Part shown: positions 16,520 through 57,785 of the stretch, piece by piece
Layout of the letters: every line of letters starts with the position of its first letter
Position numbering within the stretch: the first letter of the stretch is position 1
Source of the DNA: Haloplanus sp. CK5-1
Lineage (GTDB): Archaea; Halobacteriota; Halobacteria; Halobacteriales; Haloferacaceae
Direction of reading: 5' to 3'
Length of the DNA stretch: 64,000 bases
NCBI RefSeq assembly: GCF_037201915.1
Contig: NZ_CP147505.1
Location: 2,852,001 to 2,916,000 of the forward strand
The notes under the pieces: model-generated
The model's input: the letters and a program-made list of their open reading frames with translations, nothing else
Databases searched by the model: none
What the model was told of the DNA's origin: nothing
Program-made: the position numbers and the translations under genes

Positions 16520-17041
16520 TCACCCGCCGCTCGGGCCGTCCGGGCAGTCGACTTCGTAGGTGGTGGTCCCACCCGAGACGCGGACGTCGGATCCGGTGGC
16601 TTCGACGAGTTCGACGGTGAGGCGGTCGGCCCCGGAGACGTTGCCGGCCGGCGGCGTCAGGCGGAGCGTCGGCCCCTCTGCCGTCCCGTACGACCCCTCG
16701 AAGGTGAGGTCGGTCGGACTGTTCGGTTCGACCGTTCGGTCCACGGTGTCGGTTGCTATCCCGACCGACCCTCCCGTCGCAGTCACCCTGACGCTGACCT
16801 CGGTGATGGTGATGTCGTCGGCGAACCGGTTCCGAACGAACGCCTCGTTGGCCCCGTTCGACCCCGTCCCACACTGCAGGTCGTCGGCGAACGCGACGTA
16901 GGCATCGCCGGTCGGTTCCGCGACGCCGACGAACGCGCCGTGGTCGCTCACCACCGCGTCGTAGCCTCCGACACCGAAGACCAACCCCACGACCACCAGC
17001 GCCCCGACGACGACGGCGAGACGGCGGCGGGACCCGGTCAT
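16520..17041 (-). CDS. Secreted or membrane-anchored protein, TasA-cluster neighbour
   Basis: A 173-residue protein with one N-terminal hydrophobic segment (RRRLAVVVGALVVVGLVFG), then an extracellular beta-rich domain with DGAFVGVAEPTGDAYVAFAD and DITITEVSVRVTATGG. The segment after the membrane anchor (GAFVGV...PTGDAYVAFADD) loosely resembles the start of DUF1102/TasA-like proteins, which are encoded 0.8 kb away. Its ATG overlaps the stop of the winged-helix regulator (ATGA at 17038-17041), so the two are co-translated. The function is inferred to be linked to the surface cluster. Confidence 0.6.
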   Translation of the reverse strand: MTGSRRRLAVVVGALVVVGLVFGVGGYDAVVSDHGAFVGVAEPTGDAYVAFADDLQCGTGSNGANEAFVRNRFADDITITEVSVRVTATGGSVGIATDTVDRTVEPNSPTDLTFEGSYGTAEGPTLRLTPPAGNVSGADRLTVELVEATGSDVRVSGGTTTYEVDCPDGPSGG

Positions 17042-17574
17042 CGCTCCGCTTCCGGTGGCGGTCCCTCGCCCCCGAGGCGCATGCCCTGCGTGCAGTACGT
17101 GTGGACGAGTGCGAGGACGCCGAGTGCGGTGACCGTGAAGACGCCACACATGACGTCCGTCATCCCCGCGAGCACCGGCACCCCGAGTCCGTGACCGAGC
17201 GTCACCAGTCCGGCCGTCCCGCCGACGCCGAGGTAGTAGAGGCTCCACGGGGCGTCGTACCGGTCGACGACTTCCAGATACACGTCGATGTCGTCTGCCG
17301 CGTCCGTGAGCGTCACCTCCCCGGCGCGACGGTCGAAGACGACCAGATCCAAGTCCTCCATCTTCGGGAGGTGGAACTGCTGGAGTGACGTGTACACGTT
17401 CTTCCGTGCGTCCGCCCCGACGGCCGCGACGTCGATACCGTTCTCCCACGCCGCGACGTGTTCGGCGAGCGTCCCCAGTCCGACACGCGAGTCGGTCCGC
17501 CTCAGGTAGTGGATGACGAACCGGCGTCTCCGGTTCCGCAGTACTTCGTAGACGTCGTCCCGTGGTAGGCTCAC
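17038..17574 (-). CDS. Winged-helix regulator with two membrane helices (DUF7344-like)
   Basis: A 178-residue haloarchaeal protein. The N-terminal about 95 residues form a winged helix: EVLRNRRRRFVIHYLRRTD, LAEHVAAWENGI, KNVYTSLQQFHLPKMEDLDL and VVFDRRAGEVTLTDAADDID. Two hydrophobic helices follow (about residues 110-130 and 135-155), so the DNA-binding domain is probably tethered to the membrane. Proteins of this type often sit beside archaeal surface-protein genes. It is divergent from the TasA-like genes starting at 17792, which it may control (inference). Confidence 0.78.
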   Translation of the reverse strand: MSLPRDDVYEVLRNRRRRFVIHYLRRTDSRVGLGTLAEHVAAWENGIDVAAVGADARKNVYTSLQQFHLPKMEDLDLVVFDRRAGEVTLTDAADDIDVYLEVVDRYDAPWSLYYLGVGGTAGLVTLGHGLGVPVLAGMTDVMCGVFTVTALGVLALVHTYCTQGMRLGGEGPPPEAER

Positions 17575-17791
17575 CCTTAGTTCCCTCCTCTAGCCGGGTT
17601 ACGATACTCGGCTTCGCATACAAGTAACTATCGCTGACAGGTTCGACGACCGAGTCGATCCAGCCAACGGTAAGCGGGTCTTACCGACCGTTCGACCGGT
17701 GGTGTCCCGATTCACACACTCTTTTCTCGACTTCAACAACCGCACTACAAGGGAGATAGAGCCGGTAGCGGCCACTAGTGGATCACGACGC

Positions 17792-18478
17792 ATGCAACGG
17801 AGAAAACTGATCGCAGCCGTCGGATCGCTGGCCGCCGGGAGCGCGGCGACGGTGGGAACCGGCGCGTTCACCACCGTCCAAGCCGACCGGACCGTCGAGG
17901 TGGAAGTCGCCGGCGACGCCGACGCGTACCTCAGACTGGCCGCAACCGGGTCGCCCAACTCCGACGCGTACGTCAGCACGGACGACGGGCAGGTCTCGTT
18001 CGACTTCTCCAGCGACGGGGGTGGGGAAGGCAGCGGCTTCAATCTCGACTCGGTGACGGTCATCGACAGCCTCCTCCAGGTGGCGAACCAAGGGGCACAG
18101 TCGGTGTACTTCCACGCCGATCTGTCGGGACTCGACCTGTCCGACGACAACACGACACAGTCGGGCGGCGAAGGGCGGGCGTACGTCGCCCTCGAACCCG
18201 TGGCCCTCGACGCCGACGGGACCCGAACCGGGACGGTGACCGACGGCGAGACGCCCGTCACGAACGTCGCCGTCGGGGGCGGCGGCGGCGACATCGAGGG
18301 CACCTTCTCGGGCGTGACGCCCGGCGACCCGGAGACGGTCGAACTGGACAAGGGGGAAGCGATCGAACTCGACATGATCGTCGACACGCGGGAGTTCTCC
18401 CCCCCGTCGTCGGCGTCGTTCCCCCGGACGACCAGCGGAGACGTGACGTTCATCGCGGACCAAACGGAGGAACTCTGA
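17792..18478 (+). CDS. TasA/DUF1102-like secreted fibre-type protein 1
   Basis: A 228-residue exported protein. The N terminus MQRRKLIAAVGSLAAGSAAT is a twin-arginine-like signal ending in GTGAF, followed by the DUF1102 hallmark TTVQADRTVEVEVAGDADAY. The rest is beta-rich, acidic and Gly/Ser-rich, with ITVIDS-type strands such as DSVTVIDSLLQVANQGAQSV. Archaeal DUF1102 proteins are related to TasA-type matrix-fibre subunits (established for bundling pili of other archaea); a fibre role here is inference. The start at 17792 is chosen because the signal begins there; an upstream frame from 17699 adds unlikely residues. It is followed after one base by a second such gene. Confidence 0.78.
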   Translation: MQRRKLIAAVGSLAAGSAATVGTGAFTTVQADRTVEVEVAGDADAYLRLAATGSPNSDAYVSTDDGQVSFDFSSDGGGEGSGFNLDSVTVIDSLLQVANQGAQSVYFHADLSGLDLSDDNTTQSGGEGRAYVALEPVALDADGTRTGTVTDGETPVTNVAVGGGGGDIEGTFSGVTPGDPETVELDKGEAIELDMIVDTREFSPPSSASFPRTTSGDVTFIADQTEEL

Positions 18479-18479
18479 C

Positions 18480-19013
18480 ATGAACCGACGACAACTCCTC
18501 GCACTGATCGGATCGCTGAGCGCCGGCGTTGCGGTCGTCAACGGGACGGGCGCGTTCACGAGCGTCGAGGCCGACCGGGACGTTTCGGTCGAGGTGGCCA
18601 GCGACGCCAACGCCTATCTTTCGCTGTCGGCCACCGGCCCCAACGAACCGTACACGACGGTCGAGGACGGCCAGTTGGGTATCGACCTGACCGCCGACAA
18701 CACGTCGGGCATCTCCGGCGGGCAGGGCGTCAACGCCGAAGCGATCACCGTATTCGAGGACCTCTTCGAGATCCGAAACCAGGGCACACAGGAGGCCGCG
18801 GTGTCGGCGACGCCCCTGACGTTCGTCGACAGCGAGTCCGAGGACACGCTCCTGGTTCTGGTGGTTCCCGAGAGTGACTTCCCGGAGACGACGCTCTCAC
18901 CCGGAAGCGCCGAGACGTACAGCCTGATCGTGGGCGCGTACTCGTCCGACGACACCGACACCGACGGCAGTACCGACGACACGATCACCGTCATGGCCGA
19001 AGCGACGTCATGA
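18480..19013 (+). CDS. TasA/DUF1102-like secreted fibre-type protein 2
   Basis: A 177-residue paralogue of the preceding protein. It starts MNRRQLLALIGSLSAGVAVV, has the same GTGAF cleavage-region motif, then TSVEADRDVSVEVASDANAY. The core contains GQGVNAEAITVFEDLFEIRN, which closely matches a stretch of the 518-residue protein encoded at 20124 (GDGLNADGVTTFDDVFVIHY). The size is close to that of minimal TasA-like subunits, so it is the best candidate for a major fibre subunit if the cluster makes one. Its stop overlaps the next start (ATGA at 19010-19013). Confidence 0.78.
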   Translation: MNRRQLLALIGSLSAGVAVVNGTGAFTSVEADRDVSVEVASDANAYLSLSATGPNEPYTTVEDGQLGIDLTADNTSGISGGQGVNAEAITVFEDLFEIRNQGTQEAAVSATPLTFVDSESEDTLLVLVVPESDFPETTLSPGSAETYSLIVGAYSSDDTDTDGSTDDTITVMAEATS

Positions 19014-20068
19014 GGTGGCAGGAGCGAACGGCGGCGACGCTGGAGCGGACGGGGAGTAGCCTCACGTTCGAGGACTTCGCGACCGAGGCGGGGATCGACC
19101 CCTCGGTCGCACCCGACGAGGTCCGAAACCGGATCAACGACCAACTGAACGGGCTGTACGAGGGAGCGCCGACCGGCGGGGTCCCGGGCGATCCCCTCCG
19201 GCCGTTGCCCATGGCGCTCTCGCTCGACGAGCGGTCGAAGTGGGTCGCCGGCGAGGCCGTCGACGGCGGCGAGACGTTCGCCGGCACGTGGGACGTCGAG
19301 ACCGGGTTCGGGTTCCCGTTCTTCGAGGCCTCCGACGGGGGGTCGTCCGGCCCCAGTCCGGGACTCGAGGAGTCGACCACCCGCGGGCCGCTCTTGGAGC
19401 CCCGGACCTGCTGGGCCACGCGTCGGGGGTCGGGCAAACAGGGCCTGTACTTCGGCGGCCGATCCGGGTTCCGCGCCGTGCCCGAAGCGGAGTATCCGAT
19501 CGACGGCGCCCCGCCGGGCATCTCGTCGTTTTACCCCCTCCGGGAGTACACCGTCTCCGAGATCGACGAGATCGGCTACTTCCTCCGCGAGCCCTCGCCG
19601 TTGAACGGCGTCGACGTCTACCTGAGCATCTACACGGCGCCGGAGGACGACGGCGACGACACGGCGTGGTACGACAGCCGACTCCAGGCCCTGCCGGCGG
19701 AGGCAAACGGGGGGGACCCGTCGTTCACTCCCGGGCGATTCAACGCCTTCGCTACCTCCGCCGAGGAGCCGAACGTGTTGAACTTCTTCGACAGCGGCCG
19801 GGCGGAGACGGGCGATATCCCCAAGCCGAGCCCGGAGGACCAGGTTACCCTCGACGCCCTCGGCGATGGCCCGGTCGATTGGGCGACGACACCCGAGGGG
19901 GAGACCCGCGATTACAGCGACGAGACGGTGCTCGGCCTGTCGATCCAGACGGGGAGCGACTCCTCGTCGAGCCTCGAAGCGTACGTCGACGGGGTCGGCG
20001 TCGTCCTCGAAACGAACGAGACGCTCGTGTTGAACTTGGGCGTCGGCGTCGACGAGATCACGGAGTGA
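19010..20068 (+). CDS. Unknown 352-residue protein within the TasA-like cluster
   Basis: A protein with no signal peptide, lipobox or membrane helix that I can see, starting MRWQERTAATLERTGSSLTF. The N-terminal part is helical (SVAPDEVRNRINDQLNGLYE); the rest is rich in Gly, Pro and aromatic residues, with predicted strands (FGFPFFEASDGG, GLYFGGRSGF) and a C-terminal SLEAYVDGVGVVLETNE. I recognise no family. It is translationally coupled to the TasA-like gene before it, so it is expected to act with the surface proteins, for example as a cytoplasmic or non-classically exported partner; that is inference. Confidence 0.65.
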   Translation: MRWQERTAATLERTGSSLTFEDFATEAGIDPSVAPDEVRNRINDQLNGLYEGAPTGGVPGDPLRPLPMALSLDERSKWVAGEAVDGGETFAGTWDVETGFGFPFFEASDGGSSGPSPGLEESTTRGPLLEPRTCWATRRGSGKQGLYFGGRSGFRAVPEAEYPIDGAPPGISSFYPLREYTVSEIDEIGYFLREPSPLNGVDVYLSIYTAPEDDGDDTAWYDSRLQALPAEANGGDPSFTPGRFNAFATSAEEPNVLNFFDSGRAETGDIPKPSPEDQVTLDALGDGPVDWATTPEGETRDYSDETVLGLSIQTGSDSSSSLEAYVDGVGVVLETNETLVLNLGVGVDEITE

Positions 20069-20123
20069 TACCGATGCACACCGATCAGCGGCCCCCACGC
20101 GACGGACGGGCGGTGATCGAGTC

Positions 20124-21680
20124 GTGAGTCGGGCCGTCCCGCCCCGTGTCGTCGGCGTGGCGCTCTCGCTGGTCGTGGTGTCGCTCGCCGTCGGCACCGG
20201 GGCGTCGATGGTTTCCGGTCCGGCCGACGCCGTCTCCGACGACGTCTCCCTCTCGCCCGCTTCGGGGCCGAACGGCGAGTACGCCCGCCTCGACGACGGC
20301 GAACTCGTCGTGGACCTCACCGGGGCGAACCCGAACCTCGGCACCGGCGACGGCCTCAACGCCGACGGCGTCACGACGTTCGACGACGTGTTCGTGATTC
20401 ACTACGGCGGCGAACGCTTCGCGCGGGTCTGGCTCACCCACGACTCCGGGTCCGTCACCCTCCGGGCAGACGGTCGGCCGATCCAGTCCGAAGCGAACGC
20501 CGTCGTCCTCGACGCGAACGAGTCGGTGGCCGTCGGCCTGACGCTCGATACCGCCGACGCCGACGCCGACACCGACGGCGTGTTGGAGGACATCACCGTT
20601 CACGCGAGCGTGGCCGACCCGGAGGACGTCGACGACACGACGGCGGGCACCGAATCCTCGACGGAGGAGCGGGTGCCGAACTCCGATCCGGACTCGGACG
20701 ACGACCGGTCGATCCGGTCGTTCTCGCCCGACGACCGGACCCGGACGTTCACGGTGACGAACGCCCCGGCCGGGGCACCGGTCACGCTCGACACCGATCG
20801 GCTCGTCGTCGACGGCGCCGAGACGCGGACGCTCACGCTCGATGCGCTGACCGTGACGAGCGACGCCGGGGCGATGTCGGTCGACGTGGAAACGGTCGAT
20901 CCGGAGTCGGTCGACGCCGGCCCCGGCGTCACCCCCCTGGGCGCACTCGACGTCGAGGACAGCGGGACGGTGACGAGCGCGACGTTCCGGTTCAGCGCCT
21001 CGTCGGCGTATCTCGACGAACGGGGGATGGATCCCGGCCGCCTCGTCGTCCGCCGCAACGACGGCACCGGCTGGGAATCGATCGACCCCGACTCCCTCGG
21101 GATGCGCAACGGCCGGGCGGTCTTCGAGGCCGACTCCCCCGGCTTCTCGACGTTCGTCGTCGGCATCGGCACGCCGGCGTTCCGCGTCACCGACGCGAGT
21201 CTGACGCGGACGACGGCCGCCCCCGGCGAGTCGGTTCCGGTGGCGGTGTCGGTGACCAACGAGGGACAGGCCGCCGGCGAGTGGACGGTGCCGCTGACCG
21301 TCGACGGGGACCGCGTGGCGAACCGTACCGTCGCGTTAGCGCCCGGCGAGTCGACGACGGTCCGGTTCGACGTCGCCGCCGACTCGCCCGGGGAGTACGT
21401 TATCGGCGCGGACGGGAGCGACGCGGGGACGCTCGTCGTCGAGGCAGCGCCGTCGACGGCCACCGACGCCCCGCCCGCGACGCCGGAGCCCACGGCGCCC
21501 GCGGTCGATTCGGACGAGTCGACCGACGGGACCGACGACACGGCCGCGCCGGCGGCGGTCGGGACGCCAACGCCGGTCGCCGAACCCGGCGCCCTCCAAG
21601 TGCCGACGACGGTCGGCCTGGTCGGTCTCCTGATCGTACTGATCGCGACGTTGCTGGCGGTCCGTCGCTACGGCGGGTGA
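20124..21680 (+). CDS. Large cell-surface protein: TasA-like + PGF-pre-PGF + CARDB + C-terminal anchor
   Basis: A 518-residue exported protein with a GTG start. Order: signal-like helix (VGVALSLVVVSLAVGTGAS), a domain at about 30-180 resembling the 177-residue TasA-like neighbour (SGPNGEYARLDDGELVVDLT, GDGLNADGVTTFDDVFVIHY), a low-complexity acidic linker, a PGF-pre-PGF-like domain at about 210-350 (LVVRRNDGTGWESIDPDSLG, ADSPGFSTFVVGIG), a CARDB-like Ig domain at about 350-440 (VTNEGQAAGEWTVPLTVDG), a Pro/Thr/Ala-rich stalk and a C-terminal membrane helix ending RRYGG. This is the layout of a cell-anchored adhesin or fibre base, with the precise role inferred. Confidence 0.75.
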   Translation: MSRAVPPRVVGVALSLVVVSLAVGTGASMVSGPADAVSDDVSLSPASGPNGEYARLDDGELVVDLTGANPNLGTGDGLNADGVTTFDDVFVIHYGGERFARVWLTHDSGSVTLRADGRPIQSEANAVVLDANESVAVGLTLDTADADADTDGVLEDITVHASVADPEDVDDTTAGTESSTEERVPNSDPDSDDDRSIRSFSPDDRTRTFTVTNAPAGAPVTLDTDRLVVDGAETRTLTLDALTVTSDAGAMSVDVETVDPESVDAGPGVTPLGALDVEDSGTVTSATFRFSASSAYLDERGMDPGRLVVRRNDGTGWESIDPDSLGMRNGRAVFEADSPGFSTFVVGIGTPAFRVTDASLTRTTAAPGESVPVAVSVTNEGQAAGEWTVPLTVDGDRVANRTVALAPGESTTVRFDVAADSPGEYVIGADGSDAGTLVVEAAPSTATDAPPATPEPTAPAVDSDESTDGTDDTAAPAAVGTPTPVAEPGALQVPTTVGLVGLLIVLIATLLAVRRYGG

Positions 21681-21740
21681 CCGCGGCCGCGGTGCCGGGG
21701 TGGTTTTTTGTCCGTCGGGCGCGTCGTCCCGACGACTCGA

Positions 21741-22916
21741 ATGCCGGTACGGCGCACGCTCGCGGTCGGGGGGGAGCTACTGGTCGTCGTCGCCGTCGTC
21801 TCGCTCCTCGCGGGACAGGTGCTCGGCTACCCGGTGTTGCTCGGCTTCGTCGAAACCGGGAGCATGGAGCCGACGCTCGAGGCGGGCGACGGGTTCGTCG
21901 CGGTTCCGACCGCTCTCGACGACGACATCGAGGAGGGGGACGTGATCGTGTTCCGTGCCGAGCGGATCCAAGGCGGCGGACTCACCACCCACCGCGTCGT
22001 CGGCGAGACGGAGCGTGGCTACATCACCCGGGGTGACGCAAACCCCTTCACCGATCAGGACGGCGACGAACCCCCTGTCAGGGAGCCACGGATCGTCGCC
22101 AAGGCGTGGCAGGTCGGCGGCTCCGTCGTCGTCATCCCCCACCTCGGGACCGCCGTTGTGGGCGTCCAAACCGCCGTCGCGGACACCCAGCGCGTCCTCG
22201 CCGCCCTGACGGGGACGCGGTCCGTCTTCGGGGCACAGGGACTGACGTACCTGTTGCTCGCCCTCTCTACGGCGCTGTACGTCGTCGACCTGTTCGCGAG
22301 CGATGGCGACGGCCGCGACCGGTCGCGGTCACGCGACAGGACCACCGGCGTGTCGACCCGCCTCGTCGTCGCGGCGCTCGCCGGCCTGATCGTCGTCACG
22401 GCGACGGCGGCGATGGTCGTCCCCGCGGGGACACAGGAGTTCGGCGTCGTGAGCGCCGAGTTCGACTCGGACAGCCCGACGGTGATCCGACAGGGTGAGT
22501 CCGACTCCCTCACGTACCGCGTCCCCAACGCGGGCGTGGTCCCCGTCGTGGTCTATCTGACGCCCGAAAGCGAGGGGGTCGCGGTCGACCCGGAGCGACT
22601 CCGGGTCGGCGGGCGGGCGAGTGCGGACGCGACGCTCACGCTGTCGGCGCCGCCCGAGACGGGCTTCTACCGGCGGTATGTGACCGAGTACCGGTATCTC
22701 GCCGTGTTGCCGACGCCGCTGATCGACGCCTGTTACCGGATCCACCCGTGGCTCCCGATAATCGTCATCGACGCCGCGATGGGGGTGCCGTTCTACCTGT
22801 TCGGATTGTGGGTCGTCGGCACCGGCCGCATCCGCTCTCGGTCGCGTTCCCGCTCCCGATCACGGTCGCTGCCGGGCGTCGCAACCGTGCGCCGACTGTT
22901 CGACAGGGACGGGTGA
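21741..22916 (+). CDS. Archaeal signal peptidase I (S26B, SipW-type context) with extra C-terminal domain
   Basis: A 391-residue membrane peptidase. It has an N-terminal helix, the nucleophile Ser41 in ETGSMEPTLEAGD, the catalytic His84 in TTHRVVGE (archaeal enzymes use His where bacterial ones use Lys), and the acidic motif ITRGDANPFTDQDGD. A second membrane helix follows at about 170-190, then a third (about 225-245), an external beta domain (VSAEFDSDSPTVIRQGESD) and another helix before an Arg-Ser repeat tail. It probably cleaves the unusual GTGAF signals of the neighbouring TasA-like proteins, as SipW does for TasA (inference from context). ATG 21741 is preferred to an upstream non-ATG start at 21708. 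Confidence 0.85.
   Translation: MPVRRTLAVGGELLVVVAVVSLLAGQVLGYPVLLGFVETGSMEPTLEAGDGFVAVPTALDDDIEEGDVIVFRAERIQGGGLTTHRVVGETERGYITRGDANPFTDQDGDEPPVREPRIVAKAWQVGGSVVVIPHLGTAVVGVQTAVADTQRVLAALTGTRSVFGAQGLTYLLLALSTALYVVDLFASDGDGRDRSRSRDRTTGVSTRLVVAALAGLIVVTATAAMVVPAGTQEFGVVSAEFDSDSPTVIRQGESDSLTYRVPNAGVVPVVVYLTPESEGVAVDPERLRVGGRASADATLTLSAPPETGFYRRYVTEYRYLAVLPTPLIDACYRIHPWLPIIVIDAAMGVPFYLFGLWVVGTGRIRSRSRSRSRSRSLPGVATVRRLFDRDG
22827..22870 (+). repeat. Arg-Ser codon repeat at the end of the signal peptidase gene
   Basis: A run of CGNTCN codons encoding RIRSRSRSRSRSRS in the cytoplasmic tail of the signal peptidase. The related units TCTCGGTCGCGTTC and TCCCGATCACGGTC show it grew by repetition and then diverged. 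A basic tail next to the last helix would fit the positive-inside rule. Confidence 0.7.
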
Positions 22917-22962
22917 TCACGCCCTCAACATTCTTGTAGGGGTCCCGGAAACAGGGAGGTAC

Positions 22963-24111
22963 ATGTCACGGTCGTGGGGGGTGCGCGGTCGACTACTGCT
23001 GGAGGAGTGGTTCGCCGTCGTGGTGGTCGTCGCGGTGGTGGTCGTAGCCGTCGGCGGGGTCGCTACCTACACCGCGTACGTATCGCCGGGGACGACGACA
23101 GAACAACGGCAGGTGTCGTCGTGGGCGGCAAACGGCACGTACGAACTGTCGGCGACGGTGAGCGAACCGAACCCCCTGTACCCGGTCGGGACCGAACTCG
23201 CCGACCGGCCGGCGTACTTCCTGTCGATCAGCCCGTCCGCGGAAGGGCGGTTCGCCTTCGGCTACGAGGCCAGCGACGGCGGATCGGTCGACGTGACGAT
23301 CCAACAGGTCCTCGTCCTCAGGGCCGTCGAGAGCGAGTCGGCCGGCGGCCCGGTCGAGTACTGGCGGGTCACGGAGCCACTCGGCGCGGAGAGTGAAACC
23401 GGGGTCGCACCCGGCGAAACGGTCGACATCGCGTTCGAGCGAAACGTCAGCGCGACCTACGAGCGAATGGCCGCGATTTCGGAGCGCCTCGGCGGGACGC
23501 CCGGCACGACGGAGATGCTCGTCGTCTCGTCCGTGGCGTTCGAGGGCCGCGTCAACGGCAACGACGTCGACCGGACGGCCACCTACCGACTTCCGATCGA
23601 AGTCGACGGGACGACGTATCGACCCGGCGCAGTCGACGGCGACTCCCTCTCCGACTCGACGACCGAGACGATCACCCGCCAGCGAACCTACGGTCCCCTC
23701 TACCGCGTCGGCGGCCCGGTCGCACTGTTGGTCGGACTGCTCGGCACGGCCGGACTCGCCTACGGCCGGTACGACGACCGCTTGGCCGTCTCCGAGGCCG
23801 AACGCACGACCCTCGAGTTCGAGTCGACCCGCGAGGAGTTCGACGACTGGATCACGGTCGCCCGCCTACCGGACGCCGTCCTCGACCGCCCCCGGGTCGA
23901 GGTCGACTCGCTCGACGGCTTGGTCGACACCGCCATCGACGTCGACGCCCGCGTGTTCGAAGCGCCGGACGGCGACGCCTTCTACGTCGCCGACGACGGA
24001 CTCCTGTACGTCTACGAACCGCCGACCGCGGGGCTGAACGGAACAGTTGGTGATACCGAGGGTGCCGGCGACGACGCGGCGGACACGGACGACGGACCCG
24101 CCGACGCCTGA
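22963..24111 (+). CDS. DUF5305 family membrane protein
   Basis: A 382-residue haloarchaeal protein with an N-terminal helix (WFAVVVVVAVVVVAVGGVA), an extracellular domain (about 40-235) rich in strands with DRPAYFLSISPSAEGRF and EYWRVTEPLGAE, a second helix at about 245-265 and a cytoplasmic domain (EEFDDWITVARLPDAVLDRP in part). DUF5305 proteins are regularly encoded next to archaeal signal peptidase and DUF1102 genes, so it is likely an assembly or secretion partner. It closes the surface cluster, 45 bases before the HerA-type ATPase gene. Confidence 0.8.
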   Translation: MSRSWGVRGRLLLEEWFAVVVVVAVVVVAVGGVATYTAYVSPGTTTEQRQVSSWAANGTYELSATVSEPNPLYPVGTELADRPAYFLSISPSAEGRFAFGYEASDGGSVDVTIQQVLVLRAVESESAGGPVEYWRVTEPLGAESETGVAPGETVDIAFERNVSATYERMAAISERLGGTPGTTEMLVVSSVAFEGRVNGNDVDRTATYRLPIEVDGTTYRPGAVDGDSLSDSTTETITRQRTYGPLYRVGGPVALLVGLLGTAGLAYGRYDDRLAVSEAERTTLEFESTREEFDDWITVARLPDAVLDRPRVEVDSLDGLVDTAIDVDARVFEAPDGDAFYVADDGLLYVYEPPTAGLNGTVGDTEGAGDDAADTDDGPADA

Positions 24112-44720: not shown

Positions 44721-45237
44721 CGCCGACACGGCCGAAACCGATCCGAACGTTGGCGATATGCACAGCACTGCCCTGTCACCGAATGCGGGGAACACGAGTC
44801 CGGACACCGGCCGTGTCGCTGTCAGTGCGTCGGTAAACACGAACGTGAGAATCGCGATGACGCCGCCGCGGAAGCCAGCGTGGAGACCGGCAGCACTCGG
44901 AGTTCGGGAGCCAACTCATCGGGGTAGCGGCTGGTAACGAGACTCCTACTCCGAGACTCATAATGCGGAATGCGACGGGTGTGGAGGTCCGAATACATAG
45001 TCTATCCAACACGGTACAGCAGCGTCGGCACCTGCGGTTTTGAAGTTCGAGCGGCGGTTTAGCTTGACTGAGCACACCGTCGAGACGGTCGTACATTCGT
45101 GCTGGCAGTCTATCCAATACGAACGCGGAATCCACTCCTACTTCCCCGCCATTCTGCTATCGTTTCTCAAACTTAGCTGACTCTTTGAGCTTCAGCTACA
45201 TCTTTGATAGGCCCACGTGTAGCCACCCGTGAGAACG
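44721..45237. other. Non-coding remnant stretch in the accessory region
   Basis: About 500 bases with no convincing gene. On the minus strand near 44740-44880 a hydrophobic stretch with FRGGVIAILTFVFTDAL and SGLVFPAFGD suggests a decayed membrane protein. A 15-base direct repeat (one mismatch) occurs at 44999-45013 and 45107-45121. Confidence 0.4.
44999..45121. repeat. Imperfect 15-base direct repeat
   Basis: AGTCTATCCAACACG at 44999-45013 and AGTCTATCCAATACG at 45107-45121, 108 bases apart, one mismatch. They could be remnants of an element's ends or of a duplication. Confidence 0.5.
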
Positions 45238-45414
45238 ATGAGTCTACTGCAAGCTATCTACCCGTTCGTCTTGGCCGTTCTAAATATGGCACTGGGTTGG
45301 TTTCTCTACTACCCATTGGGATCCGTCGCTGGTATCTTGCTCGCTGCGATCGGCGTCGTCGTCCTTCTCACCCGGATCGGAGGCACTGTCGCTAGTTGTC
45401 CACTCTATCGATAG
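45238..45414 (+). pseudogene. Small membrane protein with C terminus replaced by an IS end
   Basis: A protein of 58 residues as it now reads: MSLLQAIYPFVLAVLNMALG, a second hydrophobic helix (GSVAGILLAAIGVVVLL) and TRIGGT. After residue 50 the ISH3-type element begins and supplies VASCPLYR and the stop. Joining the two sides at the duplicated ACTGT restores a frame ending TVREHRLVLGDSG at 46942, giving an original length of 62 residues. The truncated protein may still be made, as both membrane helices are intact. No family assigned. Confidence 0.75.
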
Positions 45415-45575
45415 CGCCGGTGGCAAGAGTCCGGTTTAACACGATAAGAAGGCCGAAACGAGACGAATTCCACTCCTGACGCTGCACCGAGTTAGAAAAA
45501 TATCAAATACTTGGCTGTTGTCCGCTGTGGCAGTTATTTCGACGACCGTCAAAAGATAGCTGTCGCTGTTCGCCA

Positions 45576-45599
45576 GCCTCGCTTCAGCCGAAGCGAGGC
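45576..45599. terminator. Hairpin at the 3' end of the ISH3-type transposase gene
   Basis: GCCTCGCTT-CAGCCG-AAGCGAGGC, nine perfect pairs, four bases after the transposase stop codon as read on the minus strand. It probably ends transcription or blocks read-in from the flank. Confidence 0.55.
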
Positions 45600-45602
45600 G
45601 GC

Positions 45603-46796
45603 TCAGCCGAGTCCGTGCTCGTATCCTGGTGGTAACCCTTCACTGTTTGTCCGATGCTTTTGCTTCCAGCCGAGCTCATCGTCTAACACCTGCTCGATCC
45701 CGTGGAGAAACCCATCACTGAACGTGAAATCTGTCGGGAGTGCTCGCCCGCCACGCCGTGGCCGGGCGAGCACTGCCCATTGCAACACGAGCCACAACTG
45801 CTCCAACAGGAACCCGACACCCACGTAGAAGAGCCGAATTATCGTCGATGGCGTCGTTGTCAAAGCACGCGCTTCGCGGAACTTCTCATAGCTCTTCTCG
45901 ATCCGTGACCGATGGTTGTAGACCTGCGCCACTTGCTGCGGCGTGCGGTCTTCCAGACCGTACGCCGCGTAGCCCGTTTGTTTGAGCCCTGATTTTCCAC
46001 GATCACCGTTCTGGTAGGTGACGTTCACTGCCAGCGGATACGTCTGTTCGTACTCTTTGTCTTCACAGACCGTCTCTTCTGTCATATGCGAAGCAGTGAC
46101 AGCAAGTTTCTCCCGGAGCGAGTCTTTCCGGGTTATGACCGGAAAGACTGGCGGTGCTGTCTCCCGAAGAACACCGATTAACTCCCCGACGAAGGCGTCT
46201 CTGTCCATGAGGATCTGGTCGGTCTCGAATGGATATGTCTCGACGCGGGCGAGCACGCGCTCGACCGCGTCGGCCTTGCTGTCCTCGCCATCAACTGGTT
46301 CAACTGCCAGTGTTAGTGGCTTTCCCTGCGCGATGACGAACGCAGTACAGTACCGGTGACACTTCGTGGTTCCGTCCCGTGCTTCCATTCTCCTGAACTC
46401 GTCCTCGTCGTCTGGATGACCGTGGAACGGATTGTCCATGAAGTCCAGACAGATGGTTCTCGACCCGCCGCGGTCGAGAACCGTCATTGCCACCAGTGCG
46501 AGGATATCGTTGACAGCATCGAGCATCGGCTCTTTCTCCAGGGTGTGCAACCAGTCCATCACTGGCTCGCGGTTTGGCGTGTCCTCAGTATTCGTTGTGA
46601 CGCCGTTGACTGAGGTTGTGTCAACAGCAGCTCGTAAGACGACTTCCATGATCTCCTCGGAATCGAGGCCAGAGCCCTCGATTCCTTCCATCGGTATCAG
46701 CTCAAGCAACTCCATGCTAAGAGACTTCAACTGGCTGTTCGAAATGTACTCGTCCGGATCTGTGAGGATGCGTTTGAGTTTTGGTAGCCTCATCAC
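45603..46796 (-). CDS. ISH3-family transposase
   Basis: A 397-residue DDE transposase. Typical parts are LDRGGSRTICLDFMDNPFHG (first Asp), QILMDRDAFVGELIGVL (second Asp) and YNHRSRIEKSYEKFREARAL (Glu), as in ISH3/IS4-type haloarchaeal transposases. The frame is intact, so the element may be active. A palindrome, CTGAATCAG/CTGATTCAG (46816-46837), lies just upstream of the start. Confidence 0.9.
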   Translation of the reverse strand: MMRLPKLKRILTDPDEYISNSQLKSLSMELLELIPMEGIEGSGLDSEEIMEVVLRAAVDTTSVNGVTTNTEDTPNREPVMDWLHTLEKEPMLDAVNDILALVAMTVLDRGGSRTICLDFMDNPFHGHPDDEDEFRRMEARDGTTKCHRYCTAFVIAQGKPLTLAVEPVDGEDSKADAVERVLARVETYPFETDQILMDRDAFVGELIGVLRETAPPVFPVITRKDSLREKLAVTASHMTEETVCEDKEYEQTYPLAVNVTYQNGDRGKSGLKQTGYAAYGLEDRTPQQVAQVYNHRSRIEKSYEKFREARALTTTPSTIIRLFYVGVGFLLEQLWLVLQWAVLARPRRGGRALPTDFTFSDGFLHGIEQVLDDELGWKQKHRTNSEGLPPGYEHGLG

Positions 46797-47134
46797 GCAT
46801 CCATCCGGACGGCGGCTGAATCAGGCGACTGATTCAGTCGCGTCATTCTGATCACTACGTGTCAGCAACTGGTCTCTTGAGCCAGAGTGGACAACTAGCG
46901 ACTGTCCGTGAACATCGACTGGTACTCGGGGACTCGGGCTGATCCCCCTTCCGAGCCGTCTCGTTGAACGCACTCTCCGTCGGTCGCGTTCTTACTGACA
47001 GACACTGGGAGTTCGGAAAGACGCTGCTGTATACAACGCGAGGTGACGTGTGTAGGCAACAAACGCTGGGTGCTGGTGTTTCCCACACGATACGTTCTCT
47101 CGGTCGCCTCGGCCACGACAGCTTAGCTCTCCAG

Positions 47135-48203
47135 GAGGGTGTCATAGAACTCTTCTCACACCGTGATGATTGTGCTTCCCGGATTGTCTCCGCGTTCGTA
47201 GTTGGTGATTGCGACGACGAGGCGCAGACACAACGCGAGGAACACCTGCGCTCGTGCATGGACGCGGCCTCGGGCGTGCGTTCGCCCGAGGCCGCAGCCC
47301 TTGACTGATTCGTTGGTTCGTTCGACGCCACTCCGGCGGTTGTACGTCTCGTCTAGCGTTGATTGCTTCAGCTGAACGTCGTTGCTGTGTTTTTCAATGC
47401 GGTCTTCTACCCTGTACTCGATATCTTTCGGGTCGTCGGTGTTTCGTGGATTGTACGGAGCGACTGGCACGACCCCTGCGGCCAGCAGGTGGTCGTGCCA
47501 GTCGAGCGTGTCGTAGGCACTGTCTCCAAGCATCCACATCGGTTTCCCGACGGCGAGCGCGTCACGCGTGACGCGCATCGCCGTCTCTTCTGGTGCTTGT
47601 TTGCTCTCGGTGAACTCGGCTGCAATCGGGATCTTTTGCCCGGTTGAGACGATCGTGCAGCCGTAGCCGTAGTAGTACTCGTCATCGGTTGGATCATAGC
47701 ACTTCGATGCGTCTGGATCGGCGGGCATCGCTCTCACGTCGGTTGAATCGATAGAATACGTCAAGTCGAGCAGGCCCCGCAAGGCGGCCTGCTCGACGAG
47801 ATGGTCGAAGACCCGGTCAACAACGTGCTCAAGATCAGTGAGGAATCGATCGACCGCGTCTCTCGACGGCGGTCGATCGAAGCTACAGCTGAGCCAGACA
47901 ACGGTGTTGTTCAGTTCTCGTGCAACCGGACGGATACCGTAGATGTTCTTGTAATAGCAATGGAGAAAGCCACGCATCATCTCGGGCGGCTCAAGATCTC
48001 GTGTTCGCCCCGTCTCCGCCGGGGCGAACACGTCGAACCCTTCAAGAAACTCGAAGGAGAGGTGCTCGAACAACGCCAACGTCTCCGTTTCCACGGCATT
48101 GAAGAACGATTCTACCGAAGGATCATCTTGCAGGGTCGCTGAACTCATTCCACCTCAGCGTTCACCCTGCTCTTTGGTATGCGAACTGTTCTATGACACC
48201 CTC
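47135..48203 (-). mobile_element. IS5-type insertion sequence, copy 1
   Basis: A 1,069-base element with 16-base terminal inverted repeats GAGGGTGTCATAGAAC (47135-47150 and complement 48188-48203). It appears identical to copy 2 at 56678-57746. No target duplication is seen (left flank ...CCAG, right flank TGAC...), so the flanks were rearranged after insertion or recombined. Its right end is five bases before the start of the ArdC/ImmA pseudogene. Confidence 0.9.
47156..48148 (-). CDS. IS5-family transposase, copy 1
   Basis: A 330-residue DDE transposase. First Asp region: LTYSIDSTDVRAMP; second: MWMLGDSAYDTLDWHDHLL; Glu: RRSGVERTNESVKGCGLG. The frame is intact and identical to that of copy 2. 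The start at 48148 (MSSATLQDDPSVE) leaves 55 bases to the end of the element. Confidence 0.92.
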   Translation of the reverse strand: MSSATLQDDPSVESFFNAVETETLALFEHLSFEFLEGFDVFAPAETGRTRDLEPPEMMRGFLHCYYKNIYGIRPVARELNNTVVWLSCSFDRPPSRDAVDRFLTDLEHVVDRVFDHLVEQAALRGLLDLTYSIDSTDVRAMPADPDASKCYDPTDDEYYYGYGCTIVSTGQKIPIAAEFTESKQAPEETAMRVTRDALAVGKPMWMLGDSAYDTLDWHDHLLAAGVVPVAPYNPRNTDDPKDIEYRVEDRIEKHSNDVQLKQSTLDETYNRRSGVERTNESVKGCGLGRTHARGRVHARAQVFLALCLRLVVAITNYERGDNPGSTIITV

Positions 48204-48208
48204 TGACA

Positions 48209-49122
48209 ATGTTATCGAGTACCGATTCGCGGGTTAGCTTCGGTGATTCGGATACCCGCCACGATCAGATGCACAGTACCATCGAAGAGTGGATCGACGA
48301 CCTTGTCATCGGCGTCAACGACGCGCAGGCCAGCGTGGAGTTCTAGGAGTGGCTCGGCGTCCAGAGTCGCTTCCACGATTACTCGTATCGGAACACGCTC
48401 CTCATCAAGCGGCAGTGTCCCGAGGCGAGCCGGGTTGCGGGCTACCGGACGTGGCAGGAGGAGTTTGACCACCACATCAAGGAGGGTGAGTCGGCCATCT
48501 GGATCTGGGCGCCGATCATCACCAAGCAGTGCCCGGAGTGCGAGAATTCGCCGAACTACCACGAGGACAGTAACTGTGAGTACGACGAGACACCGCCCGA
48601 GGGTTCAAGCTTGCGCCGGTGTTCGATGTCTCCCAGACCGAGGGCGAGCCGCTTCCCGACCTGAACACGGAAGCGACCGGGGACACCGGCAACCTCGTCG
48701 AACATCTGACTGCCGCCGCTGATGAACTCGGTGTGACGGTGCGAATCGTGCCGGAAGCGGAGTGGACGCACGGTGAGGCCAAAGGCATCTGTGAGCAGTT
48801 GAGTCTCGTCGACGTTCAGCCGCTCGTCGAGGTGCGTGATCGGAAGAACGAGGCCGACCTCGCGCGGACGCTGATCCACGAGTACGCCCACGCCCTGCTT
48901 CACTTCGACGTCGACGACGACGACACCGAGCGGTCGAAACGCGAAGTCGAGGCCGAGGCGGTCGCCTACGTCGTCGGGCGGTACTGTGGGCTGGATACCA
49001 GCGGGTCGGCGTTGTACCTGGCCGCGTGGGAGTCGGACGATCCCAAGATCGTTCGCGACCGTCTCGACCGCATCAGTTCCACAGCAGAAGAACTCATCGA
49101 CGTGCTCGAAGACGGCGTCTGA
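48209..49122 (+). pseudogene. ArdC-like / ImmA-IrrE metallopeptidase pseudogene
   Basis: Remains of a protein with an N-terminal ArdC-type ssDNA-binding domain (FHDYSYRNTLLIKRQCPEA, GYRTWQEEFDHHIKEGESAI, WAPIITKQCPECENSPNY) and a C-terminal ImmA/IrrE zinc-peptidase domain (TLIHEYAHALLHFD; zinc motif HEYAH). It is broken by an in-frame TAG (within GAGTTCTAGGAG, codon 46) and by a deletion with frameshift near 48600, between ETPPE and FKLAPVFDVS. Such proteins are common on haloarchaeal plasmids and conjugative islands and help incoming DNA evade defence. An IS end lies five bases before its ATG. Confidence 0.82.
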
Positions 49123-49125
49123 ATT

Positions 49126-49167
49126 CTTAACCAATACTTGGTTCTACCCCCAATTTCGTTGGTTAAG
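49126..49167. repeat. Inverted repeat bracketing AbiE, left copy
   Basis: TTAACCAA (49127-49134) and TTGGTTAA (49159-49166) with 24 bases between, extended by one more pair. A smaller palindrome CCAATACTTGG overlaps the left arm. It lies between the ArdC/ImmA pseudogene and the AbiE promoter. A closely similar pair follows the AbiE locus at 52094-52134. Confidence 0.65.
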
Positions 49168-49218
49168 TCTGCTCGTCGCCGCCGTCCGCGGCAGTCGCAA
49201 GGCTAAAGCAGACTCGTA

Positions 49219-49225
49219 TTTATAT
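49219..49225 (+). promoter_or_regulatory. TATA-like box of abiEi
   Basis: TTTATAT about 30-36 bases before the ATA codon at 49255, which stands where a leaderless start codon would be expected. The whole stretch 49210-49270 is A+T-rich. Confidence 0.55.
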
Positions 49226-49254
49226 TCTATGTAAGAAACGCAGGTATAAGTATC

Positions 49255-50076
49255 ATAGAACAAACGCAAAATATACGCCAGGGTCTCTCGACTCGAGAAA
49301 GTCGACTCCTTGCACGACTCGCTGGCGCGGGTCACCAGATCATCTCCGTCGACGACATCGAGACGACACTGGAGATCCCCCCAAACACCGCCCGTGAGAT
49401 CGCCTCCCGGCTCACCGAGAAGGGCTGGCTCGACCGGCTCTTCCCGGGCACGTATCTCATCATTCCACTCACAGCCGGCGAGGAGGCCGTGTACACGACC
49501 CACGAGTACCTCATCGCTGCCCACGTCGCCGAGCCGATGTACATCGGCTACTACAGCGCCCTCAGCCACCACGGGCTGACTGAACAGGTCCCCCGGACGG
49601 TGTACGTCGTCACGCCGACCCGAGCGCAAAGCCGAGAGATCCACGGCGTCCCGTACCGCGTCACGACAGTCACCGAGCGGAAGTTCTTCGGCTTTGAGCC
49701 GACATCCATCGAGGGCACGACCGTTCAGGTCAGCGACCTGGAGAAGACGCTGGTCGACTGTGCGGACCACCCCGAGTTCTGTGGTGGTCTTCGGAAACTT
49801 GCGACCGCGATGCGCACCGCCGACGAACGGGGTTGCGACTGGGACACGGTCGGCGAGTACCTCGAGCGCCTCGACAACGGCGCGGCGACCAAGCGGATCG
49901 TCTACCTCGCCGACCAGCTCGGCATCGACCTCCCCGCCCGCGAGGAACTCGTCGCGTCGTTCACGAGTGGCTACTCGTTGCTGGACCCGACGCGACCCGA
50001 CAACGGGTCAACCGACAGTACGTATCGCCTCCGAATCAACGTCGAGCCAGCCATGCTGGAGTCGGCGGAGTCCTGA
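49255..50076 (+). CDS. abiEi: AbiEi-type antitoxin, without a recognisable start codon
   Basis: Open frame for a 273-residue AbiEi antitoxin of the type IV AbiE toxin-antitoxin system. An N-terminal winged helix is read as STRESRLLARLAGAGHQIIS and EIPPNTAREIASRLTEKGWLDRLFPG in part, followed by the AbiEi core (VYTTHEYLIAAHVAEPMYIG, YSALSHHGLTEQVP, SDLEKTLVDCADHPEFCGG). No ATG, GTG or TTG lies between the upstream stop (49204) and a GTG at 49489, which would cut off the DNA-binding domain. ATA-GAA-CAA at 49255 sits where related proteins appear to start, so the start codon may have mutated from ATG. The toxin gene that follows is split by an IS. Confidence 0.72.
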   Translation: MEQTQNIRQGLSTRESRLLARLAGAGHQIISVDDIETTLEIPPNTAREIASRLTEKGWLDRLFPGTYLIIPLTAGEEAVYTTHEYLIAAHVAEPMYIGYYSALSHHGLTEQVPRTVYVVTPTRAQSREIHGVPYRVTTVTERKFFGFEPTSIEGTTVQVSDLEKTLVDCADHPEFCGGLRKLATAMRTADERGCDWDTVGEYLERLDNGAATKRIVYLADQLGIDLPAREELVASFTSGYSLLDPTRPDNGSTDSTYRLRINVEPAMLESAES

Positions 50077-50466
50077 TCGCGATGATCAGTCAGGACCGGC
50101 TCCGGATTCTCGCTCGCGAACTGGGCGTTCGGCAAGGGTACGCCGAGAAGAACTACGTTAATTCGTGGCTCCTCTGGGGCATCTTCACGAGCGGCTACGG
50201 CGACAACCTCCTGTTCAAAGGCGGGACCGCGCTGTCCAAGCTGTATTTCCCGCAATCGTGGCGATTCTCGGAAGACCTCGATTTTGGCGTCGAAGGGGAG
50301 TACCAGGGGTCCAAACAGGAGCTCCGAGCGGTCCTCGATACGATTGCCGACCGCTCTGGCATCGAATTCGAGATTCGCGAGCACCACGAATCCCAGCAGG
50401 ACCACTACCCGACCCACTACGTCGACATCAGCATTCATACGGTCGTGCGTTAAATTTTACCGGTAC

Positions 50467-51539
50467 TCATGGACAGAGATAGTTCCAGATATTCGGTTCA
50501 GACACTGTAGAGAGTCCTCGTTGAATCTGCTGTTTTAGCGCTGAGAGATCAGGAATGAGACGATGCTTGAACCATTCGTTGAGTCGATCCCAGCACCCTT
50601 CGATCGGGTTGAGTTCCGGCAATTTCGACGGAAAGTACCAGACATCGAGATGCTCTTCACCTTCCTCATCTCCGCGCACGCACTCGACCGAACTGTCTTC
50701 GACAGTCTCGGTCGAGCGCTCATCACTAACATGCTCCCAGAGATCTCTGTTGTAGAAGTACCCAGCACGGTCAAGAAACACAACCAGTTCTTCACCGAAT
50801 TTCTCTTGGAGCGCACCAAGCAGCCAAATGCCTTGTTTTGACGTGAGATTCTCTTCGGTCCAACAGTAGAAGCTGTCACCGTCGTCGGTGACAGCGCCAA
50901 GCACTGTCACCTTATCCCATGAGTTCGATGTCTCTATCGTCGGATTTGACCCAATCGGGTACCAGCCACGGCGTTGAACAGTGCCGACGCGTTTGGTAAA
51001 CTGATCGACGACAACAACGGTTTTCTCGGTCAGTTCAGGTCGTTTTTTTGAACTGTCTGTTGAAATTCGGCCTCTTTCTCTGTGTCAGCTTCGTGATTGC
51101 GCGGCCGTGCTGTCCGGCAGGACAGCCCGGCCTTCCCCATCAACTTTCGTCCATGACCCTTGCTGTATTCGACATCATACTCCTCTCTAACGTGGTGTAA
51201 CAGGAGCTTCGTTGACCACGCTTGCTGATCGTAGCCCCGCTCAGTTGGTGGCTCTTGCAGATGATCGAACAACTCCTCGCGCTGATTGTCTGCAAGTTTC
51301 GAGGGCCGTCCAGGTCGAGACTGGTCGTAGGGTGCCTGCTCGATCGGTTCTTCGTCGAACCGATCGAGCCAATTGCGGATCGTTTTCTCGACAACATCGT
51401 GGCGTTCGGCGAGTCTGTCGATTTCATCACCCTGCTTCCGGCCGATCGCCGCGAGAACACGTTCTCGCGGGATCTCTCCTTCCGTTTGCTCACGTAACTC
51501 GTGGAGTTCTTCCAGAGTAATATCGTCCAGCCGGCCCAT
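50467..51539 (-). CDS. IS630-family transposase in two frames with a slippery site
   Basis: The first frame (51539-51030, 169 residues, MGRLDDITLEELHELREQ) holds the HTH domain (RLAERHDVVEKTIRNWLDRF and RPGRPSKLADNQREELFDHL). It ends shortly after an A-AAA-AAC heptamer (51042-51049, minus strand). Moving to the -1 frame there continues directly into KTVVVVDQFTKRVGTVQRRG, LVVFLDRAGYFYNRDLW and KLPELNPIEGCWDRLNEWF, which carry the D, D and E of the catalytic triad. Programmed -1 frameshifting would give a fusion of about 357 residues. Alternatively it is a simple frameshift mutation. Confidence 0.78.
51042..51049 (-). promoter_or_regulatory. A_AAA_AAC slippery heptamer in the IS630-type transposase
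   Basis: Seven A then C on the minus strand, in the phase A-AAA-AAC of the first transposase frame, followed eleven bases later by the stop of that frame. The -1 frame downstream is open and coding. Confidence 0.65.
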
Positions 51540-52093
51540 TACGAGAGAATACGACTACTGTAGTAAATACTTTCGCACGACCGTATCAGTACCGCGCCGT
51601 CCTCAACCACCCCAACACGACCAGCATCGACGTGATGGTCGACGAGCACGTCGCCTTCGACCCCGTTCAGCACACTCACGCGCACGAAGATGTGCCCGAA
51701 TTCGATCTCCAGGCGTACAGCGTCGAGGAGATCTTCGCCGAAAAGCTCCGAGCGATCTACCAGCGCGGAGCCGCCCGTGACTACTACGACCTCTATCAGC
51801 TGCTCGAAACCGATTCGGTCACCATCAACTTTGCCGACGTGGGGCCCGCTTTCGACGCGAAGTGTAAACACGATGGGCTCACCGTTGATCTGAACGACGG
51901 ACTCCAGGACGAGCAACAAGAGACGATCCGCCACCAGTGGGAGACCACGCTGCCGGACCTGACCGGTGATCCGCCGGCGTTCGAGATGGTCTGGGAACAG
52001 TTGGATACGGCGATCTCCCAACAGGGATCGTCGTAGGCAACGGCCGATATCGGTGTCGATGGCCGATGGGTGCCGCATCCGGAACTCTGGGGG

Positions 52094-52134
52094 TTTAACC
52101 AACAATCTGGGATCTATGGCTGGTGCGTTGGTTA
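52094..52134. repeat. Inverted repeat bracketing AbiE, right copy
   Basis: TTAACCAA (52095-52102) and TTGGTTA (52128-52134) with 25 bases between. It has almost the same arms and spacing as 49126-49167. The abiEi-abiEii genes lie exactly between the two copies. Confidence 0.65.
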
Positions 52135-52187
52135 CGTTTTTGAGCGTCCGTCGAGGGGCGGAGGCGCATTCCAGCCTTCACCGAATC

Positions 52188-52411
52188 ATGACAGAGCGAC
52201 ATCTTAGAGCTGTTCTGGTAGAAGCTGAGCGGGTTGCAGAACAGTACGACCAGGTCGCCAAAGCCACAAGGATTCCCCTGCACACGAGTATCTCCGGTAT
52301 GCCGTACTCCGACTTCTCGAAGGCGATGCCAACTCGATCCCCGAGGAGGTCCCGCAGGTCGATGGCGTGACAGTCGGATACGGCCGAGATCAAGCGATGT
52401 ACGACAGTTGA
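52188..52411 (+). pseudogene. Frameshifted small gene of unknown function
   Basis: An ATG frame reads MTERHLRAVLVEAERVAEQY then loses sense near 52270; another frame continues from about 52280 with HEYLRYAVLRLLEGDANSIP and GVTVGYGRDQAMYDS to a stop at 52409. Together they suggest one small acidic protein broken by a frameshift. No family recognised. Confidence 0.5.
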
Positions 52412-52720
52412 GGGTCCGACGTCGAGTGATGGGACACAGTACCGCCACAGGACGACTGTACGCGCTTTCGAGTGTTCTACCCTGAGGACCAAACACCGGT
52501 TCCCCGGGTCATCCTCACCGTGATGACCGCGCTGGGAGCATGGCGAGTCTGGGAAGGGAGTGCCGCTGCCTGTGGCTCCTACGATCATCGAGAGCGACGA
52601 GAAGTCCACTTTCTCTGGCCGGAGGGGAACCTTGCGGAAGCGCTCTTGGAAAACCGGATTCAGGAGACTGACGACGCTGTCGCTCCAGACGGAGGACAGA
52701 CAGGGGACGTTCGCGACCGA

Positions 52721-53008
52721 ATGCTCGTCTCGAATGGCTCCACCTCGGCCGATGATCTCGAGCCACGAACGAAACGCGCTGTCGAGGAAGCGATGACCGT
52801 CTCCCTACTCGTCAAGGGTGGTCGCTACGAAGTCGAAGCGGCGTCCGGAAATCGATACGAGGTCGATATTATCGGGCAATCCTGTACCTGTCCTGATTGG
52901 CAGCAGCGCGCTCCAGACGGTGGCTGCAAACATATGCGTCGCGTCGATCACGAAATCAAACAGGGGCAAGTCCCACGTCCAGATGGTCAGCTTCCACCAC
53001 AGGTGTAA
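52721..53008 (+). CDS. SWIM zinc-finger protein
   Basis: A 95-residue protein with a SWIM-type zinc motif: CTCPDWQQ followed by CKHMRRV (CxC...CxH). SWIM domains bind DNA or proteins; the haloarchaeal small ones are of unknown function. The part MLVSNGSTSADDLEPRTKRAVEE before it matches the usual N terminus. The frame is open further upstream (to about 52436) with YPEDQTPVPRVILTVMTALGAWRV-type sequence, which may be a fused or decayed other protein. Start therefore uncertain. Confidence 0.7.
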   Translation: MLVSNGSTSADDLEPRTKRAVEEAMTVSLLVKGGRYEVEAASGNRYEVDIIGQSCTCPDWQQRAPDGGCKHMRRVDHEIKQGQVPRPDGQLPPQV

Positions 53009-53040
53009 GCTCCTGTCTTGCTTCTCAGTCGCTTCTGCGT

Positions 53041-53066: not shown

Positions 53067-53093
53067 TTGGCGTACTCGATTGAACACACCAAT

Positions 53094-57746: not shown

Positions 57747-57785
57747 ATTCATCACACCTATATATTCGAATGCCGGCGCTCGGGC

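Follow-up and report, generated by a model that had tools for sequence, protein, structure and literature searches.

A probable Tafi pilus locus in Haloplanus sp. CK5-1 and a signal-less partner family linked to one of its pilins

A cluster of eight genes in the haloarchaeon Haloplanus sp. CK5-1 raises two questions, namely which surface filament it encodes and what a protein without any export signal does directly behind its second pilin gene. The cluster lies in a stretch of 64,000 nucleotides (the window; contig NZ_CP147505.1, positions 2,852,001 to 2,916,000), and coordinates below count from the first nucleotide of the window unless a locus handle precedes them. An earlier sequence-only reading had taken the genes for a TasA-like surface-fibre locus with its own signal peptidase, in which a 177-residue (177-aa) protein is the main subunit and a 518-aa protein the anchor. 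Open reading frames (ORFs) and family matches confirmed its gene inventory in place, the small anchored protein lying just outside its boundary at 17038; two features had not figured in it, the twin-arginine translocation (Tat; RR) signals on both GTGAF proteins and the lack of an export signal in the 352-aa coupled protein. The core locus is of the Tafi (Tat-fimbria) type, which is already known, and the passenger or microprotein linked to one pilin is new.

The Tat-fimbriae of haloarchaea, termed tafi, come from Galeva et al. (iScience 2025, doi 10.1016/j.isci.2025.111793, as relayed by the citing article PMC12687288). A 75-pilin profile matched a single solved protein, the pilin of the Natrinema sp. 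J7-2 Tafi pilus (PDB 9p0a, released 2025-07-23), at E 1.4e-43. An AlphaFold2 model of the 177-aa protein (predicted local distance difference test, pLDDT, 82) returned the entry "Structure of Natrinema sp. J7-2 Tafi pilus" at Foldseek rank 1 (E 2.5e-7), the Pyrobaculum bundling pili (7ueg) at rank 2, the Sulfolobus thread (7pnb) at rank 11 and TasA (8aur) at rank 38 (E 0.13, TMq 0.28). These profile, single-protein and fold matches indicated that the window pilins are homologous to an experimentally identified Tafi pilin, at about 21% identity over the structural alignment.

The gene neighbourhood was then compared with that of known Tafi loci. Over its first 107 residues, the 9p0a pilin agrees completely (100% identity) with a protein of Natrinema gari JCM 14663. 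In the locus of that protein (L283), the pilin is followed by an anchor of the DUF1102/CARDB type, then by a long signal peptidase and a DUF5305 protein, and a DUF7344 gene lies upstream on the opposite strand; this is the core order of the window. The 518-aa protein aligned with the 394-aa protein of that locus (L283:4682-5866) at 32% identity over 136 aa (BLASTP, E 2e-12), the two signal peptidases are 49% identical, and the pilins on both sides carry Tat/GTGA-F signals; the Natrinema locus differs in having one pilin where the window has two, and no second pilin, microprotein or passenger is present there. The neighbourhood of anchor, long signal peptidase, DUF5305 and DUF7344 was likewise shared with L071, which holds NCBIfam-grade TafA, TafE and TafF together with DUF5305, DUF7344, long signal peptidase and LamG proteins in a different order. 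The tafi loci L071-L073 resemble the window in bringing TafA and TafE homologues, a DUF7344 regulator, a long signal peptidase and DUF5305 together, whereas gene order and strands differ and a Tat LamG protein is found there, as against the 352-aa passenger in the window. We consider it highly probable that the window locus is a haloarchaeal Tafi locus.

Both window pilins scored below the NCBIfam equivalog cut-offs for TafE (NF052522) and TafA (155 and 190 bits), with TafE and TafA scores of 60 and 38 bits for the 229-aa protein and of 64 and 34 bits for the 177-aa protein. Since even the solved 9p0a pilin stays under the two cut-offs (77 and 53 bits), they distinguish subfamilies and are not usable as a test of Tafi membership; the low scores show that the window pilins are not TafA or TafE orthologues, and they say nothing against membership. 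NCBIfam-grade TafA was present in only 7 of 146 Halobacteriales genomes. The names TafA and TafE were considered for the window pilins and rejected, as both fall into a clade of the pilin tree that is separate from TafA, TafE and 9p0a.

The Tat signals of the two pilins read MQRRKLIAAVG...GTGAF and MNRRQLLALIG...GTGAF, in keeping with Tafi, and across 75 pilins R3, R4, G22, G24 and A25 are invariant and F26 is nearly so. The 9p0a sequence has 215 residues, 188 of which are modelled, and provided that its C-terminus is complete, modelling would start at F28, right behind GTGA. In TasA, the donor strand is formed by the mature N-terminal residues 28-38 (PMC9674648). The model of the 177-aa pilin leaves residues 11-46 without regular structure, the first strand starting at 47, and this segment would fit a free N-terminal donor segment.

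The Bacillus TasA/SipW/TapA system shares with the window a SipW-type Ser-His signal peptidase, a signal ending in A-F and a related jelly-roll donor-strand filament. It differs in that TasA is exported by Sec, while both window pilins have Tat RR motifs; in addition, the fold similarity is weak, and no TapA homologue was identified in the window locus. The earlier description as TasA-like therefore holds for the broad donor-strand family, to which the fold belongs, and gives way where the closest relative is concerned, which is the Tafi pilus and, next to it, the Pyrobaculum pili. The Pyrobaculum pili and Sulfolobus threads in turn matched the 177-aa model in fold, and differ from the window in signals and gene neighbourhoods, at about 10% identity.

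The signal peptidase of the locus is a long form that combines an S26 domain with an immunoglobulin-like (Ig-like) domain and a transmembrane (TM) segment. Ser-52, His-95 and Asp-110 (numbered from 21708) are conserved in at least 90% of 32 homologues, and the Ser-His arrangement is that of signal peptidases of the endoplasmic reticulum and SipW type. The locus holds a dedicated Ser-His signal peptidase, as a TasA/SipW system does; against the SipW model NF046067 the enzyme reached 36 bits, below the cut-off of 190. Long signal peptidases were found in 93 of the 146 Halobacteriales genomes and DUF5305 in 89, and 102 of 113 long-peptidase copies had DUF5305 within 8 kb, where about 0.6% would be expected by chance. 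This gene order goes far beyond chance, and the co-occurrence with signal peptidase genes recurs strongly across haloarchaea. The earlier proposal that the locus makes a surface filament and has a signal peptidase of its own was supported. A second DUF5305 gene of the same genome (G000:C1:2753897-2754484), about 120 kb away, has no adjoining long signal peptidase.

Why does the locus have two pilins, and what follows the second one? In the pilin tree, the 177-aa protein belongs to a clade of its own (14 rows, support 100/99), hereafter the T177 type. In relatives, the gene behind a T177-type pilin encodes signal-less proteins of the beta-helix (L091, L125), pectinesterase-like (L165) or PKD (L162) kind, which share with the 352-aa protein an acidic, helical N-terminal module of about 40 residues (consensus MxLTIxDFxEQxxGLxxEDIPPExRERINDxLAxLT). 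With a first model of this module, run over 265 distinct pilins of all loci, it was detected behind 9 of the 13 most T177-like pilins (E <1e-15) and weakly behind two more (L184, L164), and no credible match was seen behind the other 252. In an independent comparison of 392 genomes, nine had the module (E <1e-4), and precisely these nine also headed the ranking by T177-type score (Fisher 2e-18). Pilin and module pairs also stand free, with no other Tafi genes nearby (L162, L164). The T177 type is sporadic and nearly always tied to a signal-less module protein directly downstream.

The commoner form of the module proved to be a bare, signal-less microprotein of 40-61 residues, of which we found 15 cases in Natribaculum, Halopiger, Natronolimnohabitans, Natrinema, Haloterrigena, Haloplanus and Halorubrum, located -4 to +3 nt behind the second pilin (example: MADDTPTLSDYEETADVEFDLSDEEIDRETINAELERLFSS). 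Differences among the 15 sequences amounted to 244, 168 and 422 at codon positions 1, 2 and 3 in 867 codons, and since the third position changes most, the microproteins are real genes. A widened model, run over 270 pilins, detected the module immediately behind 21 of them (-4 to +3 nt), all within the 39 most T177-like, and behind none of the remaining 231. A search of the module against the PDB gave chance matches only, and the microprotein had no match in plasmids. These data indicated a tiny pilin-partner family that was previously unrecognised.

This pairing bears on which pilin builds the shaft. A TasA-like fibre with the 177-aa protein as main subunit, the 352-aa protein being incidental, would agree with the DUF1102 match and good pilin model of the former, and the two pilins resemble the Tafi pilin to much the same degree (E 1.3e-10 for the 177-aa and 9e-12 for the 229-aa protein). 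A type that is rare and bound to a passenger or microprotein gene fits that role poorly, however, and the weak TasA match and the Tat, not Sec, signals speak against such a fibre, so that we judge this reading improbable and the earlier assignment of the 177-aa protein as main subunit unlikely. The shaft is more likely to be formed by the 229-aa pilin, whose gene comes first beyond the divergent regulator.

The 352-aa protein itself has neither an export signal nor a hydrophobic N-terminus, and it matched no Pfam or NCBIfam family. Residues 17-56, the module, were modelled as two helices with low confidence. The C-terminal domain (residues 89-352) was found in 9 of the 391 genomes sampled from the class; all 10 homologues in other genomes carry a Tat signal, and therefore this domain is normally exported. 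Eight of the 10 are fusions behind a Tat/SipW-type, TasA-like N-terminus, one of them (L099) with TIGR04088 and Peptidase_M73/camelysin matches, and the usual fusion partner of the domain is thus of the same type as the product of the preceding gene in the window.

Such natural fusions, together with the overlap of the 177-aa and 352-aa ORFs, would also suit expression of the two ORFs as a single protein by frameshifting or readthrough, by which the passenger would gain the Tat signal. The junctions vary by genome, however, being -4 (ATGA), -1 (TGATG) or 0 (TAG-ATG, in frame), and fit no single recoding mechanism; moreover, the microprotein-only versions have an ATG of their own at +1 to +3. 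We therefore regard a recoded fusion as very improbable.

The L099 locus is of interest beyond that homologue. At L099:6201-10288 it contains a haloarchaeal Tat-protein cluster with canonical bacterial-style SipW signals (GAGTFAYFSDTE; TIGR04088, Peptidase_M73), next to a DUF7344 regulator and to a short protein that resembles signal peptidases, and represents a second, CalY/TasA-like filament type.

How, then, might a protein without a signal be joined to the pilus? In the explanation that we favour as a whole, and that we hold to be evenly poised between right and wrong, this is a Tafi locus with the 229-aa protein as shaft, the 177-aa protein as carrier and the 352-aa protein as hitchhiker. 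Both pilins would fold in the cytoplasm and be exported by the Tat pathway, after which the dedicated long signal peptidase would cut at GTGA|F. The N-terminal segment released in this way would connect one subunit to the next by donor-strand complementation, giving a thin pilus. The 518-aa protein would anchor the pilus, an assignment already made by the sequence-only reading and well suited to its DUF1102 and CARDB matches and C-terminal TM segment; the DUF5305 protein would aid assembly, and the membrane-bound DUF7344 protein would act as regulator. The N-terminal module of the 352-aa protein would dock on the 177-aa pilin in the cytoplasm, the pair would cross by Tat as carrier and hitchhiker and be incorporated into the pilus or attached to it, where the lectin-like C-terminal domain would be displayed, possibly for adhesion.

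Export of this kind is known from bacterial hydrogenases, where a signal-less partner crosses bound to a partner with a Tat signal. The window pair likewise has one signalled and one signal-less partner with coupled genes; for haloarchaea, no report of Tat hitchhiker export was found in the open-licence papers searched. Carriage of the signal-less partner through Tat by the T177 pilin is a tentative proposal, to which we give somewhat less than even credence. With similar reserve, it is possible that the microprotein family, which accompanies one class of Tafi pilin in several haloarchaeal families and has repeatedly become fused to beta-helix, PKD or lectin-like domains, serves as a docking tag by which signal-less surface proteins ride Tat on a folded pilin and are shown on the pilus, in a modular carrier/hitchhiker adhesin system.

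The main rival to the hitchhiker reading is a cytoplasmic chaperone or cap. Here, the module would be a partner of the second pilin that is never exported, such as a Tat-specific chaperone, a proofreading factor or a groove cap, and the C-terminal additions would work inside the cell. Many module proteins are bare microproteins of 40-61 aa without a signal, the start-stop overlap suits a dedicated chaperone produced in step with its client, and folded Tat pilins may need their open donor-strand groove protected. On the other side, beta-helix, PKD and lectin-like passenger domains are better suited to the cell surface, and each of the ten further relatives of the C-terminal domain of the 352-aa protein is equipped with an export signal. 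We consider the cytoplasmic alternative unlikely.

Several observations weigh against carriage of the module by the pilin. Signal-less proteins could simply remain cytoplasmic; the module slot is occupied by a divergent N-terminus in L127 and L163, gives a weak match in L164 and none in L126. Three module proteins have no pilin nearby (L206, L207, L208), so that the module can act in trans or serve another role. Finally, a fold search of the 352-aa C-terminal domain gave no confident PDB match (model mean pLDDT 62).

The three pilin-less proteins, L206:7640-8455 and L207:7016-8176 (both from the window's own genome) and L208:4020-6014 (Haloplanus ruber), are signal-less and have the same N-terminal module; PKD-like domains occur in L206 and L208, and two of the three adjoin a glutamine-synthetase-like gene. 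L091, from genus g3 of the same family, offers a natural diversity array. Six Tat-GTGAF pilin-domain genes stand in a row in this Tafi-type locus, some C-termini being LamG or beta-helix, and two module and beta-helix proteins are interleaved with them.

The features of the locus are summarized in Table 1.

Table 1. Features of the Tafi-type locus in the window
Feature	Position	Strand	Evidence or remark
Small secreted/anchored protein	16520-17041	-	4-nt overlap of start with regulator stop
DUF7344 winged-helix regulator, two membrane helices	17038-17574	-	PF24035 E 8.9e-29
229-aa pilin, Tat/GTGA-F signal, candidate main (shaft) subunit	17789-18478	+	9p0a match E 9e-12
177-aa pilin (T177 type), Tat/GTGA-F signal, candidate adapter/carrier	18480-19013	+	DUF1102 E 4e-7; 9p0a E 1.3e-10
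352-aa signal-less passenger protein, N-terminal module and C-terminal beta domain	19010-20068	+	ATGA overlap with 177-aa gene
Helical docking/partner module (putative), residues 17-56 of 352-aa protein	19058-19177	+	Hidden Markov model and alignment with module proteins and microproteins
C-terminal beta domain, residues 89-352 of 352-aa protein	19274-20065	+	Elsewhere fused behind Tat/SipW-type TasA-like domains
518-aa anchored protein	20124-21680	+	DUF1102 E 8e-9, CARDB 5e-10, C-terminal TM
Long signal peptidase, archaeal/SipW-type S26, Ig-like domain and TM	21741-22916 (ORF opens 21708)	+	TIGR02228, 61 bits, above cut-off
DUF5305 membrane protein, probably a partner in assembly or processing	22963-24111	+	PF17231 E 1e-51

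The regulator and the small anchored protein lie on the minus strand and the remaining six genes on the plus strand, where 1 nt separates the two pilin genes, the 352-aa gene overlaps by 4 nt, and 55 nt lead to the 518-aa gene, followed by the signal peptidase and DUF5305 genes. The DUF7344 regulator is divergent from the pilins in most loci, and the family is also present in L071. The small anchored protein has a counterpart at the same position in the congeners L129, L130 and L132 and in G072/G113, and it occupies the slot of the Tat-LamG protein in the Haloarcula-type tafi locus. In Haloplanus relatives, the flanks are constant, with DUF7113 and a 418-aa ORF on one side and HerA and a 353-aa ORF on the other, whereas pilin content differs.

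Tafi pili were reportedly named in 2025, and their assembly genes are said to be barely explored. A very common, uncharacterised type of haloarchaeal locus is now tied to the solved Tafi pilus, and likely roles are gained for DUF7344, DUF5305, DUF1102 and the fused signal peptidase. Pilin-bound microproteins are short enough to escape annotation easily; if the docking-tag proposal is true, they would show how folded pilins carry signal-less cargo and would offer a route to protein display on archaeal cells.

Elsewhere in the window, an AT-rich island spans 45000-58000 (GC about 0.55-0.60, against 0.65-0.70 around it). Two transposase-like ORFs within it (47156-48148 and 56699-57691) are equal in length and begin with the same sequence, and another copy of this kind was found in the same genome at L207:10373-11365. 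Between the two, at 49489-52036, inspection by eye showed an AbiEi antitoxin-like ORF followed by AbiEii nucleotidyltransferase-like pieces that are split between two or more ORFs; this may be a toxin-antitoxin pair that has been interrupted.

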